Source of the DNA: Anaerolineae bacterium
Lineage (GTDB): Bacteria; Chloroflexota; Anaerolineae; Aggregatilineales; Phototrophicaceae
NCBI GenBank assembly: GCA_022824365.1
Contig: JAJEAA010000018.1
Span: forward strand, 62,001-126,000
Direction: 5' to 3'
Length of the DNA stretch: 64,000 nt
Shown here one piece after another: positions 54,201-61,352 of this stretch (position 1 is its first letter; each line of letters starts with the position of its first letter). A program made the translations under genes and the position numbers. The notes beneath the pieces were generated by a model. That model did not search any database and was not told where the DNA came from. It saw nothing but the letters and a program-made list of their open reading frames with translations.

Positions 54201-56567
54201 TCACGGACGCCGCAAGGCAGGCGCGCCATTAATGCTACCGGCGACCCAACCGAAAGTACCATTGGCTGTCTGTACGCGCCACCAACGATAGCCTTCGTTC
54301 TCGTAGGGTCCGGCGAAGATGGCCACATAATCTCCGGCAACGGCTCCACCAACAATGCGGCTGGATGTCGTCGGCTGCTGGCGAATATTCAAATTTGGCA
54401 ATGTGACTCTAAGCTGCTCGCCCGGCGCATACTCGGAACCTATGATGACAGCTTCCGGGATCGGCGCGTCGGCCGGCGCCCTGACACCAAACTGCGGATT
54501 GCTGACAAGACCCGTGTCATCACTGACGATTCCGCTGTCTATCTCAACGGTAAACTGCTGCCCCTGCACAGTGAGAACAACCGCGCTGCGGTCAGGGAAC
54601 CAATGCGTCTCCTCCGCTGGCGCGCTGCCGATGAAGTTGGAGAGCTGATTGCCAGCGCCGTCATACAGAGCGAGAGGACCGCTGCCAGGACCGCCGGGAC
54701 GCCCAAGCGCGACGTATTGGCCGTTGGGAAGAAGGACGGCATCCTGCAGCCACAAACCACGCGCCGAGCCATCAAGGATGATTCGCTCATCCTGCAGGTT
54801 CCGGTTCACCGCGCCAATGATCACCCGGCCATCGGGACGCCTCCCGCTGACGGTGATGCTCTGTCCGTTCGGATTCCAAGTCGCGTAGTCGTAGCGGGCG
54901 ATCGGGGGCAAGTCATTGGCATAGAACGGATCTCGGGCCGCTGGCGCAATCGCGATTCCGTTTCGCCCTTCATCGGGCAGATGCAGATTCAAGAGAACGG
55001 TATTGTCTCCGCGAATTGGCGACCAATGTACAGCAACGGTCTTCCAATGATAGGGCGGTCCAGGTCGATTGACAATTTGACAGGGCGCATATCCCTCATG
55101 CGCGCAATCTCGAATGATCTGATATGCAGCGCCGTGTACCGGGTCATTAATTGGCTGCCAGAAAAAGACGCCGGCATGGCTGGTATCCATGCCCGGTGGC
55201 GGGTCAACCCGCAAGCTAAAATGCGTCCCGTCAGCGGACCAATCCAATTCAACAACACGATTCTTGTTCTGTTCGTAGCTGCCAATTTGGCTCCCATAAC
55301 CGGGATGGAATGGTTTATCTATCATTTCGATTTCTTGCGCGCCACCGATGGACCGGAAGCGTAATATGCCTTTGCTGTCGGTGCGAAGGAAACTATTGGA
55401 ATCAACCGGATTCTGCAGGAACAACCGTACGCCGCCGCCCAACTGGATATTCTCAAATGAAAAGACCTGCCCTGCCCCGACATCGTATTGATAGGCCGAT
55501 GCGCCGGTGATGTCGAAAGTAGTCGGCTGAGAAATCGGCGGTTGGATAGCCGGATTCAGCAAGTCGCTGCGGACTGCGACGGTTGGTTGGAAAAAGGTGG
55601 CGGAAGGACTTGGCGTCAAGGTTGGTCGGTCCAACTGTGATTGAGGCGTTTCGACCCCGGGCGTCGATACAACAGGCTCAACATTTGGCGCCGAGATGTC
55701 AACAGGCGCGGTTGATTCCGGCGGGGCTTCGGTGGTAAGGACGGGAGGCAAGGTCGGGATAGCCGTCCAGGTCGGCGGCAGCGTCGGTCGCGGCAGCGGC
55801 GTCGCCAGCAGTTCCGCCACTTCGGTCGGATTGAATGTGGGCAGCGGCGTAAAGCTTGGAAGCGAGAGTATGACGATTTCCTCGCCTTCGGTCGATGTAG
55901 CCGTAGGTGATGGCTCTTCAAGAACCTGCGGCAGACTCTCCGGCGGAGTGTGGGTGGCAGTGGGCGTTACTGATGGCGCGTCGGTTTCGAACTCTATGCG
56001 AGTCGGCGTCGGCTCAATGGTTTCGGTAGGCGGGAGTGTGACTGTCGCCGTCGGCTCCGGTGTATTCGTATCCGTCGGCAGATCCGTGTTGGTTGCGGTC
56101 AATGTGATGGGCCTGTCGGTTGCTGTGTTAGTGACAGTAGACGTCGAGGTATCTGTTGCCGTCAGCGTTTGAGTCGCCGTCGGTGTGTCCGTCACAGTAG
56201 GAGTACCTGTGACGGTCGGAGATGGCCTGTCTGTTGCAGGAGGCGTATCCGTCGCTGTTGGACTGTCCGTTACAGTGGCCGTAAGCGTCTCGGCTGGCGT
56301 TGGGGTTTCCGTATCTGTTGCCGTTGGCGCATCTGTCGCTGTGACAGTTGGAGTAAATGTGACCGATGGCAAAGCTGTTGCAGTCGACGTCGATATGGGC
56401 GACGCGGTCGCTATCATTGTCTCTGTCGGCAATTCCGTTGCGACGGTCGCCTGCGGCGCGCGCGTATCAATTGGCGCCAAGGTCAGCGTGACCTCGGGCC
56501 GACGCAAATTGCAGGCACACAAGCTCAGGGCCAGGGAAAGGAAAGCGAGCGCCCGGCGCATCAGCAA
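54201..56567 (-). CDS. Thr/Pro-rich lipoprotein with beta-propeller-like region and C-terminal SH3 domain
   Basis: Protein of 788 residues. TTG 56567 has GGAG 6 nt upstream; ATG 56561 is an alternative. The signal ends in a lipobox-like L-C-A-C, so it is probably lipid-anchored outside. Residues about 45-240 are a Thr/Pro/Ala/Asp-rich low-complexity stalk of short TATxT-like units. Residues about 330-690 are beta-rich, with segments such as VVELDWSADGTHFSLRVDPP and RYDYATWNPNGQSITVSGRR like WD40/TolB propellers. The C-terminus is a bacterial SH3 domain (PNLNIRQQPTTSSRIVGGA then WWRVQTANGTFGWVAGS). Such proteins are frequent in Chloroflexota and likely bind cell-wall material. The GT2 gene follows with overlap or close spacing. 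Confidence 0.8.
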   Translation of the reverse strand: MLMRRALAFLSLALSLCACNLRRPEVTLTLAPIDTRAPQATVATELPTETMIATASPISTSTATALPSVTFTPTVTATDAPTATDTETPTPAETLTATVTDSPTATDTPPATDRPSPTVTGTPTVTDTPTATQTLTATDTSTSTVTNTATDRPITLTATNTDLPTDTNTPEPTATVTLPPTETIEPTPTRIEFETDAPSVTPTATHTPPESLPQVLEEPSPTATSTEGEEIVILSLPSFTPLPTFNPTEVAELLATPLPRPTLPPTWTAIPTLPPVLTTEAPPESTAPVDISAPNVEPVVSTPGVETPQSQLDRPTLTPSPSATFFQPTVAVRSDLLNPAIQPPISQPTTFDITGASAYQYDVGAGQVFSFENIQLGGGVRLFLQNPVDSNSFLRTDSKGILRFRSIGGAQEIEMIDKPFHPGYGSQIGSYEQNKNRVVELDWSADGTHFSLRVDPPPGMDTSHAGVFFWQPINDPVHGAAYQIIRDCAHEGYAPCQIVNRPGPPYHWKTVAVHWSPIRGDNTVLLNLHLPDEGRNGIAIAPAARDPFYANDLPPIARYDYATWNPNGQSITVSGRRPDGRVIIGAVNRNLQDERIILDGSARGLWLQDAVLLPNGQYVALGRPGGPGSGPLALYDGAGNQLSNFIGSAPAEETHWFPDRSAVVLTVQGQQFTVEIDSGIVSDDTGLVSNPQFGVRAPADAPIPEAVIIGSEYAPGEQLRVTLPNLNIRQQPTTSSRIVGGAVAGDYVAIFAGPYENEGYRWWRVQTANGTFGWVAGSINGAPALRRP

Positions 56568-56735: not shown

Positions 56736-57173
56736 CTAGCTCTGTAGAAGAGCTTCCAATTCGGACGTCACTCGGGATTCATCAATGATCCCGAACCAAC
56801 GCCCTACAATTTCATCAGCAGAATTGACGAGCACATACTGCGCTTGAGCGGTAATGCCCAATCTGCGTCTTATGTCATTAAGCGATGAGTCGTCAATGTC
56901 AAGCACCACGAACTCGATGCGGCCGGCGAAGGTTTCATTTATCCCGCTCACGGCGGGCGCGTTTGCGCGGCAAGTCGGTCACCACGAAGCCCATGAATCG
57001 TAAAAGGTGAAACGCGGCGCGCTCGGCGCCTCGACGACGTCCCCAACCGACGACTCGGCGGGCGCCTCTCCTCCTGCGGAACCGCTGGTCAGAATCGACC
57101 GCAGTGCGGAACATCCGCTTAGCGCGATCAACCCAAGCAGGAGTATCGCGATCAATCTTGGAGTTGACTTCAT
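56736..57173 (-). CDS. Thioredoxin-like selenocysteine lipoprotein (UxxC)
   Basis: From ATG 57173 (GGGAGG 4-5 nt upstream) the frame encodes a lipoprotein signal (LIAILLLGLIALSGC, lipobox LSGC, lipidated C21). It then reads FYDSWASW, a TGA at 56981-56979, and continues PTCRANAPAV to a stop at 56736. With Sec at the TGA the motif is W-U65-P-T-C68, the thioredoxin W-C-x-x-C site with Sec as nucleophile. The C-terminal half (FVVLDIDDSSLNDIRRRLGI, YVLVNSADEIVGRWFG) has the thioredoxin/TlpA strand order, but the cis-Pro position is not Pro. The whole protein is 145 residues. Standard gene finders would give two fragments (57197-56979 and 56951-56736). It likely reduces or exchanges thiols outside the membrane. 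Confidence 0.82.
56943..56957 (-). promoter_or_regulatory. Candidate bacterial SECIS hairpin of the thioredoxin-like gene
   Basis: Starting 22 nt after the TGA, the mRNA reads CCCGC-CGUGA-GCGGG: five G-C pairs and a 5-nt loop with G in the second position. The loop begins 26 nt after the UGA, inside the known 16-37 nt window. The geometry is close to that of the other candidate at 252-270 (loop at 28 nt), although the sequences differ. Confidence 0.65.
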
Positions 57174-57329
57174 ACTACCTCCCATCATATTGCGCATGAC
57201 AAGGCAAGCCTAACAAGGACCGATAACAAAAGTCTTAAGCAATTCGTCCCAATGCTACATTGGGGATTATACAGCATGATCGTAGAACAGAATCCAAAGA
57301 ATGCTCAGGTCCCTGCGCTTAAGCAAACT

Positions 57330-58346
57330 TCAGGCGTCGGATCGGGCTGCCAGGTTCTCGGCATATTGCCGCTCCGCGCGCCTTCTGCGATAAGCCAAGG
57401 GCGGCGATATAGCGTCTGACTCAAAAGACTCTACGATCTCCGTCAGGTATTCAACGAGCGGCGTATACGTTATTCCCAGCTCCGTTTTGCCCAGATTGTT
57501 GTCCAGAGCGCTCATCCAGCGTTCGCGGAAAGGCGCGCAATCCGGAAGAAAGCCGTTGGACACGAGGGCGTTGCGGTCGGCGCTAAGCCATACCGCCTGA
57601 GTACCCATAATGGATGCGAGGATGTTGAGGAATTCCTGATGGCTGACGTGTTCATCCTGAGCGATGTTATAGGCTTTGCCTTTGCCCGCGCCGCTCTCAA
57701 TCAGGCGCAGGATGATGTCAACAACATCGAGGGCGTATACATGGTTCAAGGCGTAATTCGGCGTGCTGGGAACCAGGATCGGTCCCCCGTCTCGCAATCG
57801 CAAGTAATAGTTGAGCAGTCTGTGATAAGGATCGCGAGCGCTGTTGACCATCGGCAGGCGCAGCATCGTATAGGGAAAATCCGAGCGCGCGCCTTCCGCG
57901 ATCATGACATCCTCGGTTTCGCGCTTCTGCATGCCGTAAAGCCATTCTTCATAGTGATACGATGTTTCCGCCGGCGCTGGCATCAAGTCGCCTTCATAGT
58001 CGCTTTCGTAATACGGACGGCGTAATCCTTCACGCACGAGATACACTTGGCCGCTGCTGAGGGCGATGTAATGCTCGACGTTGTCGCGGAAGAGCTCGAT
58101 GGCAGTCAGCGCCTCATCCCGTCGATACAAGACAAAATCCACCACAACATCAAAGGATTTCGCCAGCAAGGCGCGCCGCATCTGCCTGTGATTCGTGCGG
58201 TCTACCGTCAGCCGGTGAATCGACCGCGGCAAATCCTCCGCCGTGATGCCACGATTCAACAAAGTGAGATCACAGCCCATCTGCGCCAGGCGCTGCGAAA
58301 GGTAATAACCCATATTTCTTGTGCCGCCAATGATGAGAATGCGCAT
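57330..58346 (-). CDS. NAD(P)-dependent epimerase/dehydratase (SDR)
   Basis: Protein of 338 residues. It begins MRILIIGGTRNMGYYLSQRL with an extended-SDR-like glycine motif (GGTRNMG). The active-site region is YIALSSGQVYL with YHYEEWLYGMQKRETE giving Tyr-x-x-x-Lys, and YTMLRLPMVNSARDPYHRLL follows. The atypical glycine motif is that of the isoflavone-reductase/RNA-binding-type SDR subgroup. It probably acts on a nucleotide sugar or is regulatory; the substrate is unknown. Confidence 0.82.
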   Translation of the reverse strand: MRILIIGGTRNMGYYLSQRLAQMGCDLTLLNRGITAEDLPRSIHRLTVDRTNHRQMRRALLAKSFDVVVDFVLYRRDEALTAIELFRDNVEHYIALSSGQVYLVREGLRRPYYESDYEGDLMPAPAETSYHYEEWLYGMQKRETEDVMIAEGARSDFPYTMLRLPMVNSARDPYHRLLNYYLRLRDGGPILVPSTPNYALNHVYALDVVDIILRLIESGAGKGKAYNIAQDEHVSHQEFLNILASIMGTQAVWLSADRNALVSNGFLPDCAPFRERWMSALDNNLGKTELGITYTPLVEYLTEIVESFESDAISPPLAYRRRRAERQYAENLAARSDA

Positions 58347-59387: not shown

Positions 59388-60335
59388 TCAGCCAATGGCG
59401 CGCTTCACGGCATCGCGGTAACCAAGCCTCATACGCGTGCTGACGTCCGCATCCGGCGCGGACATCTCGGCGCCATGATACATCCCGGGATAGACCTGCA
59501 GCTCGGTGGGAACACCGGCCGCCATCAGCCGTTGCGCATAAGCGATGTCCTCATCGCGAAAGAGATCCATCACGCCAACAGTGACGAAAGCGGGCGGCAG
59601 TCCGCTCACATCCTTCGCCCGCGCCGCCGCCGCGTAGGGCGATACATTTTCCGCGCCGTACTCATCGCCGAGGTACATCCGCCAAGCTTTCAGCGACAGC
59701 TCCCGGTTCCAGACTGTCGGATGCGTGATTTCATGGCCCGAAGGACTGTCATGCCTGTCGTCTATCATCGGGTAGATCAGCAACTGCAAGGCGAGATCGT
59801 GCCCGGCGTGGTCCCGGTTGTGCAGAGCAACCCCAGCGGTCAAGCCGCCACCGGCGCTCGCCCCGCCGACAGCTATTCGCTTCGAATCAACGCCGAGTTC
59901 CGCAGCGTTCTCCACCAGCCAGTTCAGCGCGCCAACACAATCGGCGACGCTCTCCTTGTAGGTGGATTCCGGAGCGAGCCGATAATCCACCGAGACAACG
60001 GTACAGCCGACATGCTCGGCGAAGCCAATGCCGTGCGGATCGTTGCGGCCGGAGCCGACGATGTAACCGCCGCCGTGAATCCAGAGCAAGCCCCCGCGCG
60101 GCGCCGGGCTTGGCGGCTGATAGATGACGACCGGGATATCGCCATCGGGTCCCGGCGTCGATGTTTCTTCAATGGCGACATCGGTCGGCGGCATGTCATC
60201 CGCCAGGGCGTCCCAGATGGGTTGGAACATCTCGCGCGCCAGTGGCGGATCGTCGCCGATGGCGGTCATGAGTTCGGCCGGGAAGAAGTCGAGGGCGTGG
60301 ACGATTTCGGGGTCTATTTGTTCGCGGAAGGACAT
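59388..60335 (-). CDS. HSL-family alpha/beta hydrolase (copy 1)
   Basis: Protein of 315 residues. The oxyanion motif is WIHGGGYIVGSGRNDPHG (HGGG) and the nucleophile elbow IAVGGASAGGGLTAG (GxSxG), with VDYRLAPESTYKESVADCVG between. The catalytic Asp/His are expected near TVGVMDLFRDEDIA and YPGMYHGAEMSA. This is the hormone-sensitive-lipase (family IV) esterase group, acting on short acyl esters. It and the next gene upstream are tandem copies of identical length. ATG 60335. Confidence 0.9.
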   Translation of the reverse strand: MSFREQIDPEIVHALDFFPAELMTAIGDDPPLAREMFQPIWDALADDMPPTDVAIEETSTPGPDGDIPVVIYQPPSPAPRGGLLWIHGGGYIVGSGRNDPHGIGFAEHVGCTVVSVDYRLAPESTYKESVADCVGALNWLVENAAELGVDSKRIAVGGASAGGGLTAGVALHNRDHAGHDLALQLLIYPMIDDRHDSPSGHEITHPTVWNRELSLKAWRMYLGDEYGAENVSPYAAAARAKDVSGLPPAFVTVGVMDLFRDEDIAYAQRLMAAGVPTELQVYPGMYHGAEMSAPDADVSTRMRLGYRDAVKRAIG

Positions 60336-60404: not shown

Positions 60405-61352
60405 TCAACCGATGGCGCGTTTGAGGGCATCTAGGTAGCCCATGCGCATACGTTGGCTTACGCTGGCTGTCGGCACAAAACCTTCCCCACCGTGAAACAT
60501 GCCGGGAATGACCTGCAGTTCGGTCGGGATGCCGGCCGCCATCAGCCGCTGCGCGTAATCAATGTCTTCATCGCGGAAAAGGTCTTCCGTACCGACGGTA
60601 ACGAAGGCCGGAGGCAGTCCGCTCAAGTCAGTGGCGCGCGCCGCGGCGGCGTACGGCGAGACGCTTTCTGTGCCATATTCATCGCCGAGATACATCTTCC
60701 AGGCTTTGAGAGAGACATCACGATTCCATACGTTGGGATGCGTGACTTCGTAGCCCGACGGTGTCTCGTGGGTATCGTCAATCATCGGATAGACAAGCAA
60801 TTGAAATGCGATATTCGGTCCCTTGTTATCGCGGTTATAAAGCGCGAGCCCGGCAGTCAAGCCGCCACCAGCGCTGCCGCCGCCGATGGCAATGCGGCTG
60901 GTATCGACGCCGAGTTCGGCGGCGTTATCAAACATCCAATTCAAGCCGGCAAAGCAATCGGCGATGCTGGCTTTGTAGGTGAACTCTGGCGCCATGCGAT
61001 AGTCGACCGAGACGACGGTACAGCCCACATGGTCGGCGTAGCCAATGCCGTTAAGGTCTTCGCGGGCGGTGCCGACAATGTAGCCGCCTCCGTGAATCAT
61101 GAACAGTCCGGGTCGAGGGGCGGGAGCAGGCGGCTGATAAATGGCGATGGGAATGTCGCCGTCAGGACCGGGGATGCTGCGCTCTTCAATCGTGACCTCG
61201 GACGGCGGCAGCATCTCCGCCATAGCGGCCATCAGCGGTTCGAGCATGGCGCGGGCGGCCGGCGGGTCATCGCCAATGGCGGTGATCAATTCGGCTGGGA
61301 AGAGGTCGAGCGCGGGCACGAGTTCTGGGTCTACGCGGTCGATGAATGACAT
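60405..61352 (-). CDS. HSL-family alpha/beta hydrolase (copy 2)
   Basis: Protein of 315 residues, aligned end to end with copy 1 (for example EHVGCTVVSVDYRLAPE versus DHVGCTVVSVDYRMAPE). Motifs are MIHGGGYIVGTAREDLNG, IAIGGGSAGGGLTAG, TVGTEDLFRDEDIDYAQR and IPGMFHGGEGFV. Predicted family IV esterase. The intergenic gap between copies is 69 bp, so they are likely one transcript from a recent duplication. Confidence 0.9.
   Translation of the reverse strand: MSFIDRVDPELVPALDLFPAELITAIGDDPPAARAMLEPLMAAMAEMLPPSEVTIEERSIPGPDGDIPIAIYQPPAPAPRPGLFMIHGGGYIVGTAREDLNGIGYADHVGCTVVSVDYRMAPEFTYKASIADCFAGLNWMFDNAAELGVDTSRIAIGGGSAGGGLTAGLALYNRDNKGPNIAFQLLVYPMIDDTHETPSGYEVTHPNVWNRDVSLKAWKMYLGDEYGTESVSPYAAAARATDLSGLPPAFVTVGTEDLFRDEDIDYAQRLMAAGIPTELQVIPGMFHGGEGFVPTASVSQRMRMGYLDALKRAIG

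Follow-up and report, generated by a model that had tools for sequence, protein, structure and literature searches.

The window analysed here, a stretch of 64,000 nucleotides, contains on its reverse strand a gene which standard gene calling splits into two short frames (56979-57197 and 56736-56951). Direct reading from the ATG at 57173 to the TAG stop at 56738-56736 gives a single frame of 145 residues. The original prediction had claimed that a lipoprotein-signal frame and a thioredoxin-like frame lie here in phase, divided by one TGA, and this is what the sequence contains: the TGA at 56981-56979 is the sole in-frame TGA, and it replaces the first Cys of a W-C-P-T-C motif. The features of the locus are as follows.

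57330..58346, (-) strand: upstream neighbour, NAD-dependent epimerase family protein (conserved neighbour within the genus)
57178..57183, (-) strand: GGGAGG, Shine-Dalgarno-like, with the ATG 4 nt downstream (from sequence)
56736..57173, (-) strand: predicted selenoprotein gene, a 145-residue thioredoxin-like lipoprotein read through one UGA (U65, W-U-P-T-C; from sequence and orthologs)
57111..57173, (-) strand: lipoprotein signal peptide with lipobox LSGC, residues 18-21 (sequence and genus conservation)
56979..56981, (-) strand: in-frame UGA, predicted selenocysteine 65 (all 29 genus loci have TGA here)
56943..56957, (-) strand: SECIS hairpin CCCGC-CGUGA-GCGGG within the coding sequence (conservation, covariation, folding and published model)
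56739..57011, (-) strand: thioredoxin domain, residues 55-145, beta-alpha-beta-alpha-beta-beta-alpha, with A111 at the cis-Pro position (profile and model)
54201..56567, (-) strand: downstream neighbour, Pro/Thr-rich SH3-domain lipoprotein (neighbourhood reading)

The lipoprotein signal, also part of the original prediction, is borne out by the lipobox LSGC and its conservation: C21 (57113-57111) is the lipidation Cys by pattern, and M1, G20 and C21 are invariant across the genus. The protein is thus a predicted lipoprotein, and from the lipobox we infer that it is anchored outside the cytoplasm. A linker of low predicted order lies between the signal and the thioredoxin domain.

Orthologs were searched for in 100 related genomes, including 33 other genomes of the genus. 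They turned up in 28 of these 33, always with a single TGA; counting the window's, all 29 loci of the genus have TGA at the aligned codon. Close relatives with an intact Cys codon, together with other disabling mutations at this locus, had been named beforehand as a possible sign against selenocysteine (Sec); all of the genus orthologs keep the TGA. In the family and the order, further TGA forms occur together with Cys forms at the same alignment column, such that the in-frame UGA aligns with the functional Cys of the homologs. The sequence on both sides of the TGA is under purifying selection, with dN far below dS (for the window gene compared with G013, downstream of the TGA, dN is 0.106 and dS 1.402). 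A scan of genome contigs with the genus alignment returned loci from Chloroflexota/Anaerolineae metagenome-assembled genomes and, further out, only distant thioredoxin-like matches; a scan of viral contigs found no relatives.

The gene is absent from five genomes of the genus. In G020 the loss is real, since beyond the intact epimerase gene lie other sequence and an unrelated gene. The other four genomes also lack the epimerase, and in these a missing stretch of the assembly is indistinguishable from real loss. As G020 has lost the gene but kept the epimerase and the Sec machinery, the protein is dispensable.

The hairpin that follows the TGA consists of a CCCGC strand (56957-56953), a CGUGA loop (56952-56948) and a GCGGG strand (56947-56943). 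The original prediction had it beginning 22 nt after the TGA; its coordinates and hairpin are right, with 21 nt from the UGA to the stem, the earlier count having run to the 22nd nucleotide, and the loop lies at 26 nt. The published model of bacterial SECIS elements calls for a loop of 3-9 nt with a G in its first two positions, a stem of 4-16 bp, a UGA-to-loop distance of 16-37 nt and a minimum free energy of at most -7.5 kcal/mol (PMC13188914). With its 5-nt loop CGUGA, 5-bp stem, 26-nt distance and -9.0 kcal/mol, the hairpin at the locus fits this model, and it covaries among relatives. The folding of the isolated hairpin (z -2.1) is modest taken alone; it is conservation and covariation, rather than folding energy by itself, that raise the hairpin above chance. 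The GU in the 5-nt apical loop is conserved, and the four inner pairs form in all 38 distinct TGA sequences, one of them being invariant and the other three varying. The stem contains 43 double-change cells versus 14.9 in shuffles, a control which keeps relatedness in, so that the count is not to be read as a probability. The covariation score is 0.570 versus 0.299 in the shuffles, none of which reached it, and for structures shifted by 1 to 3 columns the paired fraction is at most 46%. The SECIS conclusion is safe because several stem variants arose and all of them pair. The stem doubles as coding sequence (P-A-V-S-G), and its compensations accordingly show as linked codons: GCC with AGC, ACC with AGT, and GTC with AAC. 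In the first six Cys homologs to be examined, these pairs are mostly broken. G116, a genome without a selA match, has a Cys form (WCTTC; L146, L158) with an intact hairpin, CCCAT-CGTGA-ATGGG, which looks like a leftover from a recent change from Sec to Cys.

In bacteria, Sec is inserted by SelB and Sec-tRNA, which decode UGA with the help of a nearby hairpin. Lack of this machinery was a second outcome that would have told against the original prediction, and the window genome contains all of its parts: tRNA-Sec (66.2 bits, anticodon tca), SelA (558.6 bits), SelB (338.7 bits) and SelD (380.6 bits). The selD gene of this genome (L191, G000:C32:180140-181075) itself has an in-frame TGA.

The distribution of the Sec and Cys forms largely follows that of selA. 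Where the ortholog is in its TGA form, the genome has selA; selA is absent from all eight examined genomes whose sole copy is a Cys form (G047, G061, G087, G103, G110, G113, G116 and G137), although these eight are related and represent fewer than eight independent events. In one of them, G087, SelB is still above its cut-off. In G089 and G097 the Sec machinery is present and a Cys copy occurs alongside a UGA copy. Exceptions are found among genomes with distant UGA paralogs: G133 (63% complete) has only a selA fragment, G057 (68% complete) has SelB and no selA match, and in G056 neither selA nor selB is above the cut-off. The paralog of G056 (L154) is a U-x-x-U gene, and its occurrence in such a genome may reflect an assembly gap, contamination or decay. 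In a tree of 83 domains, which rests on 97 columns and leaves the deep forks without resolution, Cys forms appear at several separate spots among the Sec forms. The tree carries nine changes of Sec/Cys label, at least four of them forced by well-supported branches. The pattern fits repeated exchange between the two residues, mostly from Sec to Cys within the orthologous clade. The family offers a natural experiment, with Sec forms where selA exists and Cys forms where it has been lost.

In relatives, conservation extends jointly to the stop codon, the RNA signal behind it and the two halves of the protein; the seemingly stop-broken gene therefore almost certainly encodes a working, membrane-anchored thioredoxin-like selenium protein. 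We consider it highly probable, on sequence evidence, that the locus specifies a thioredoxin anchored by lipid outside the cytoplasm, with selenocysteine as the nucleophile of its active site (W-U65-P-T-C68). The proposal that the UGA codes for Sec is sustained by the TGA conservation in orthologs, the hairpin and the Sec machinery. Owing to the split gene calls, a conserved surface redox protein of this uncultured Chloroflexota genus is easily missed.

Two other accounts of the TGA have hardly any probability left. Near-cognate tRNAs can read through UGA, and the codon might accordingly be translated as Trp or another amino acid, or be reassigned; yet it aligns with the catalytic Cys of homologs and not with Trp, it is accompanied by a SECIS-like hairpin and a full Sec machinery, and other genes of the window, such as the upstream epimerase (at 57330), end normally in TGA, so that the recoding is local and the code is not changed genome-wide. 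The two short frames could also be taken as the dead or truncated halves of a pseudogene, or as a sequencing error, in which a Cys codon has turned into TGA, a reading already refuted by the TGA shared by all 29 genus loci, the low dN relative to dS on its two sides, the covarying hairpin behind it and the confinement of Cys forms mainly to genomes without selA.

The original prediction had called the product thioredoxin-like and named the TlpA and thioredoxin families for comparison. It matches the thioredoxin profile PF00085 above threshold (27.9 bits; gathering score 23.5), and together with the fold this places it in the thioredoxin superfamily; the TlpA model is far below its cut-off (19.6 bits versus 230). 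An AlphaFold2 model built on the alignment has block-mean pLDDT values of 91 to 98 from residue 51 onward, and shows the thioredoxin order of elements minus the first strand and helix. Its best matches among solved structures are thioredoxins, with Z about 14 over ~90 residues. The scores remain below the curated cut-offs for the thioredoxin equivalog TIGR01068 (35.7 bits versus 96.8), DsbE TIGR00385 (22.3 bits versus 123.15) and ResA (15.9 bits versus 170), and TrxA, DsbE, ResA and TlpA are all ruled out as its identity on these grounds. TIGR00385 matches 30 of 31 members, weakly in every case. The active-site sequence W-(U/C)-P-T-C is as in DsbE. The protein resembles DsbE/CcmG, ResA and TlpA in being a predicted anchored extracytoplasmic thioredoxin domain, and differs from them in its scores far below their cut-offs and in the lack of a cis-Pro. 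The only NCBIfam selenoprotein model to appear is NF041054 (11.8 bits versus a cut-off of 300), the ResA-like WAxxUGC family. This is likewise a selenoprotein family with a ResA-like domain, and the similarity is weak; its motif is U-G-C, whereas that of the window protein is U-x-x-C.

Thioredoxin (PF00085; PMC13188914) and thioredoxin-like 1 (COG0526; PMC2398784) are known types of UxxC selenoprotein. The window protein shares with them a fold of the PF00085 type, Sec as the first residue of UxxC, a SECIS element after the UGA and the existence of Cys homologs. Unlike them, it carries a lipoprotein signal and linker, its predicted structure is without the first strand and helix, and its clade has Ala, Ser or Thr instead of the cis-Pro. 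Its membership of the thioredoxin-like UxxC selenoproteins is well supported; it is ordinary in kind and unusual in missing the cis-Pro.

The cis-Pro with which the third strand of the fold begins is replaced in the window protein by A111 (Q110-A111-Q112-Y113). The original prediction had singled out a non-Pro residue at this position as an oddity; it is real, yet common to the whole orthologous clade, in which Ala, Ser or Thr occupies the site in the Cys forms as well, and it is not tied to selenium. Pro is found in homologs at the level of the order. An adaptation to Sec was considered as the reason for the loss and rejected, as the Cys forms (L048, L146 and L159-L162) are also without the cis-Pro and many Sec paralogs retain it. 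Cis-Pro is no exclusive criterion for the superfamily, since peroxiredoxins have Arg, and the site is believed to belong to the region that binds substrate (PMC2757866). The same source, citing Su et al. 2007, also describes the residue as thought to keep metals off the active-site thiols.

The window gene has one Sec in its motif (UxxC), while two members of the orthologous clade (L055 1494-2009 and L056 1480-1926 (-)) contain W-U-x-x-U with two in-frame TGA codons. U-x-x-U is also found in a paralog group (L151-L156) of shorter proteins which retain the cis-Pro, in six genomes, one of them of the window's genus. A SECIS-like hairpin is conserved behind the UxxU motifs where they were read: in L055, L056 and four paralogs with DNA read, its loop lies 26 nt from the first UGA and 17 nt from the second, both within the published range of 16-37 nt. 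UxxU is known from a Prx-like thiol:disulfide oxidoreductase, the metal-binding protein NF041115 and the SelL-type Prx-like 2 (PMC13188914, PMC2398784). The relatives described here are like these in having two Sec in the redox motif and belong to a different kind of protein, thioredoxin-like lipoproteins akin to the product of the window gene, a combination for which no report was found in the open papers searched, which are only part of the literature. We lean slightly towards the view that the family has repeatedly moved to a fully selenium-substituted U-x-x-U, with one hairpin in the SelB range of both UGAs, and that loss of the cis-Pro may allow metal binding or unusual substrates. The U-x-x-U forms would then be membrane-anchored diselenide thioredoxins, and would allow one to test whether one SECIS can serve two UGA codons so close together, and what role a diselenide plays in a thioredoxin. 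Two further thioredoxin-like UxxC groups with the same type of hairpin occur in the order, L175-L178 (DWUQYC / DWUAVC) and L184, L186-L189 (WUSAC / WUSTC), and thioredoxin-like selenoproteins seem to be abundant in the lineage.

A working scheme for the protein can be outlined. SelB with Sec-tRNA would decode the UGA, aided by the hairpin just behind it in the coding sequence. Outside the cytoplasm, U65, the putative nucleophile, would attack a disulfide or oxidised thiol, and C68, the putative resolving residue, would resolve the selenenyl-sulfide. The oxidised U-C pair would be re-reduced, most likely via a CcdA/DsbD-like membrane protein fused to a TlpA domain, through which electrons from the cytoplasm could reach it. 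The window genome encodes such a CcdA/DsbD-like protein with a C-terminal TlpA-like domain (L144 868-2805, G000:C32). A second TlpA-like protein directly follows it (L144 2823-3302, G000:C32).

A VKOR homolog is present in the window genome besides the CcdA-like route, so that either redox direction is conceivable. In place of a reductase, the selenoprotein could serve disulfide formation as a thiol oxidase or isomerase, with the VKOR homolog re-oxidising it; the altered cis-Pro site, thought to bind substrate (PMC2757866), would be in keeping with such a role. We regard this as possible but less likely, given that the genome has the CcdA-like electron route. Sec favours reductive catalysis, and CPTC is the motif seen in reductases of the DsbE/CcmG type, the family whose model, TIGR00385, gives the weak matches described above. 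A reductase remains the preferred reading.

The best local candidate for a substrate is inferred to be the downstream SH3 lipoprotein, as its only Cys residues outside the signal are C488 and C496, a pair kept in several relatives. This lipoprotein adjoins the selenoprotein gene in every genus locus read. The neighbourhood is not the same outside the genus, which leaves a fixed partner unsupported and makes both partner and substrate guesses.

The original prediction called the gene a second hidden selenoprotein, implying a first; scans of the window for open flanks, coding score and SECIS-like hairpins gave no convincing other case. Rfam identifies only two tRNAs in the window. Two adjacent and similar alpha/beta-hydrolase genes (59388-60335 and 60405-61352, (-) strand), the first of which matches PF07859, have the appearance of a tandem duplicate.
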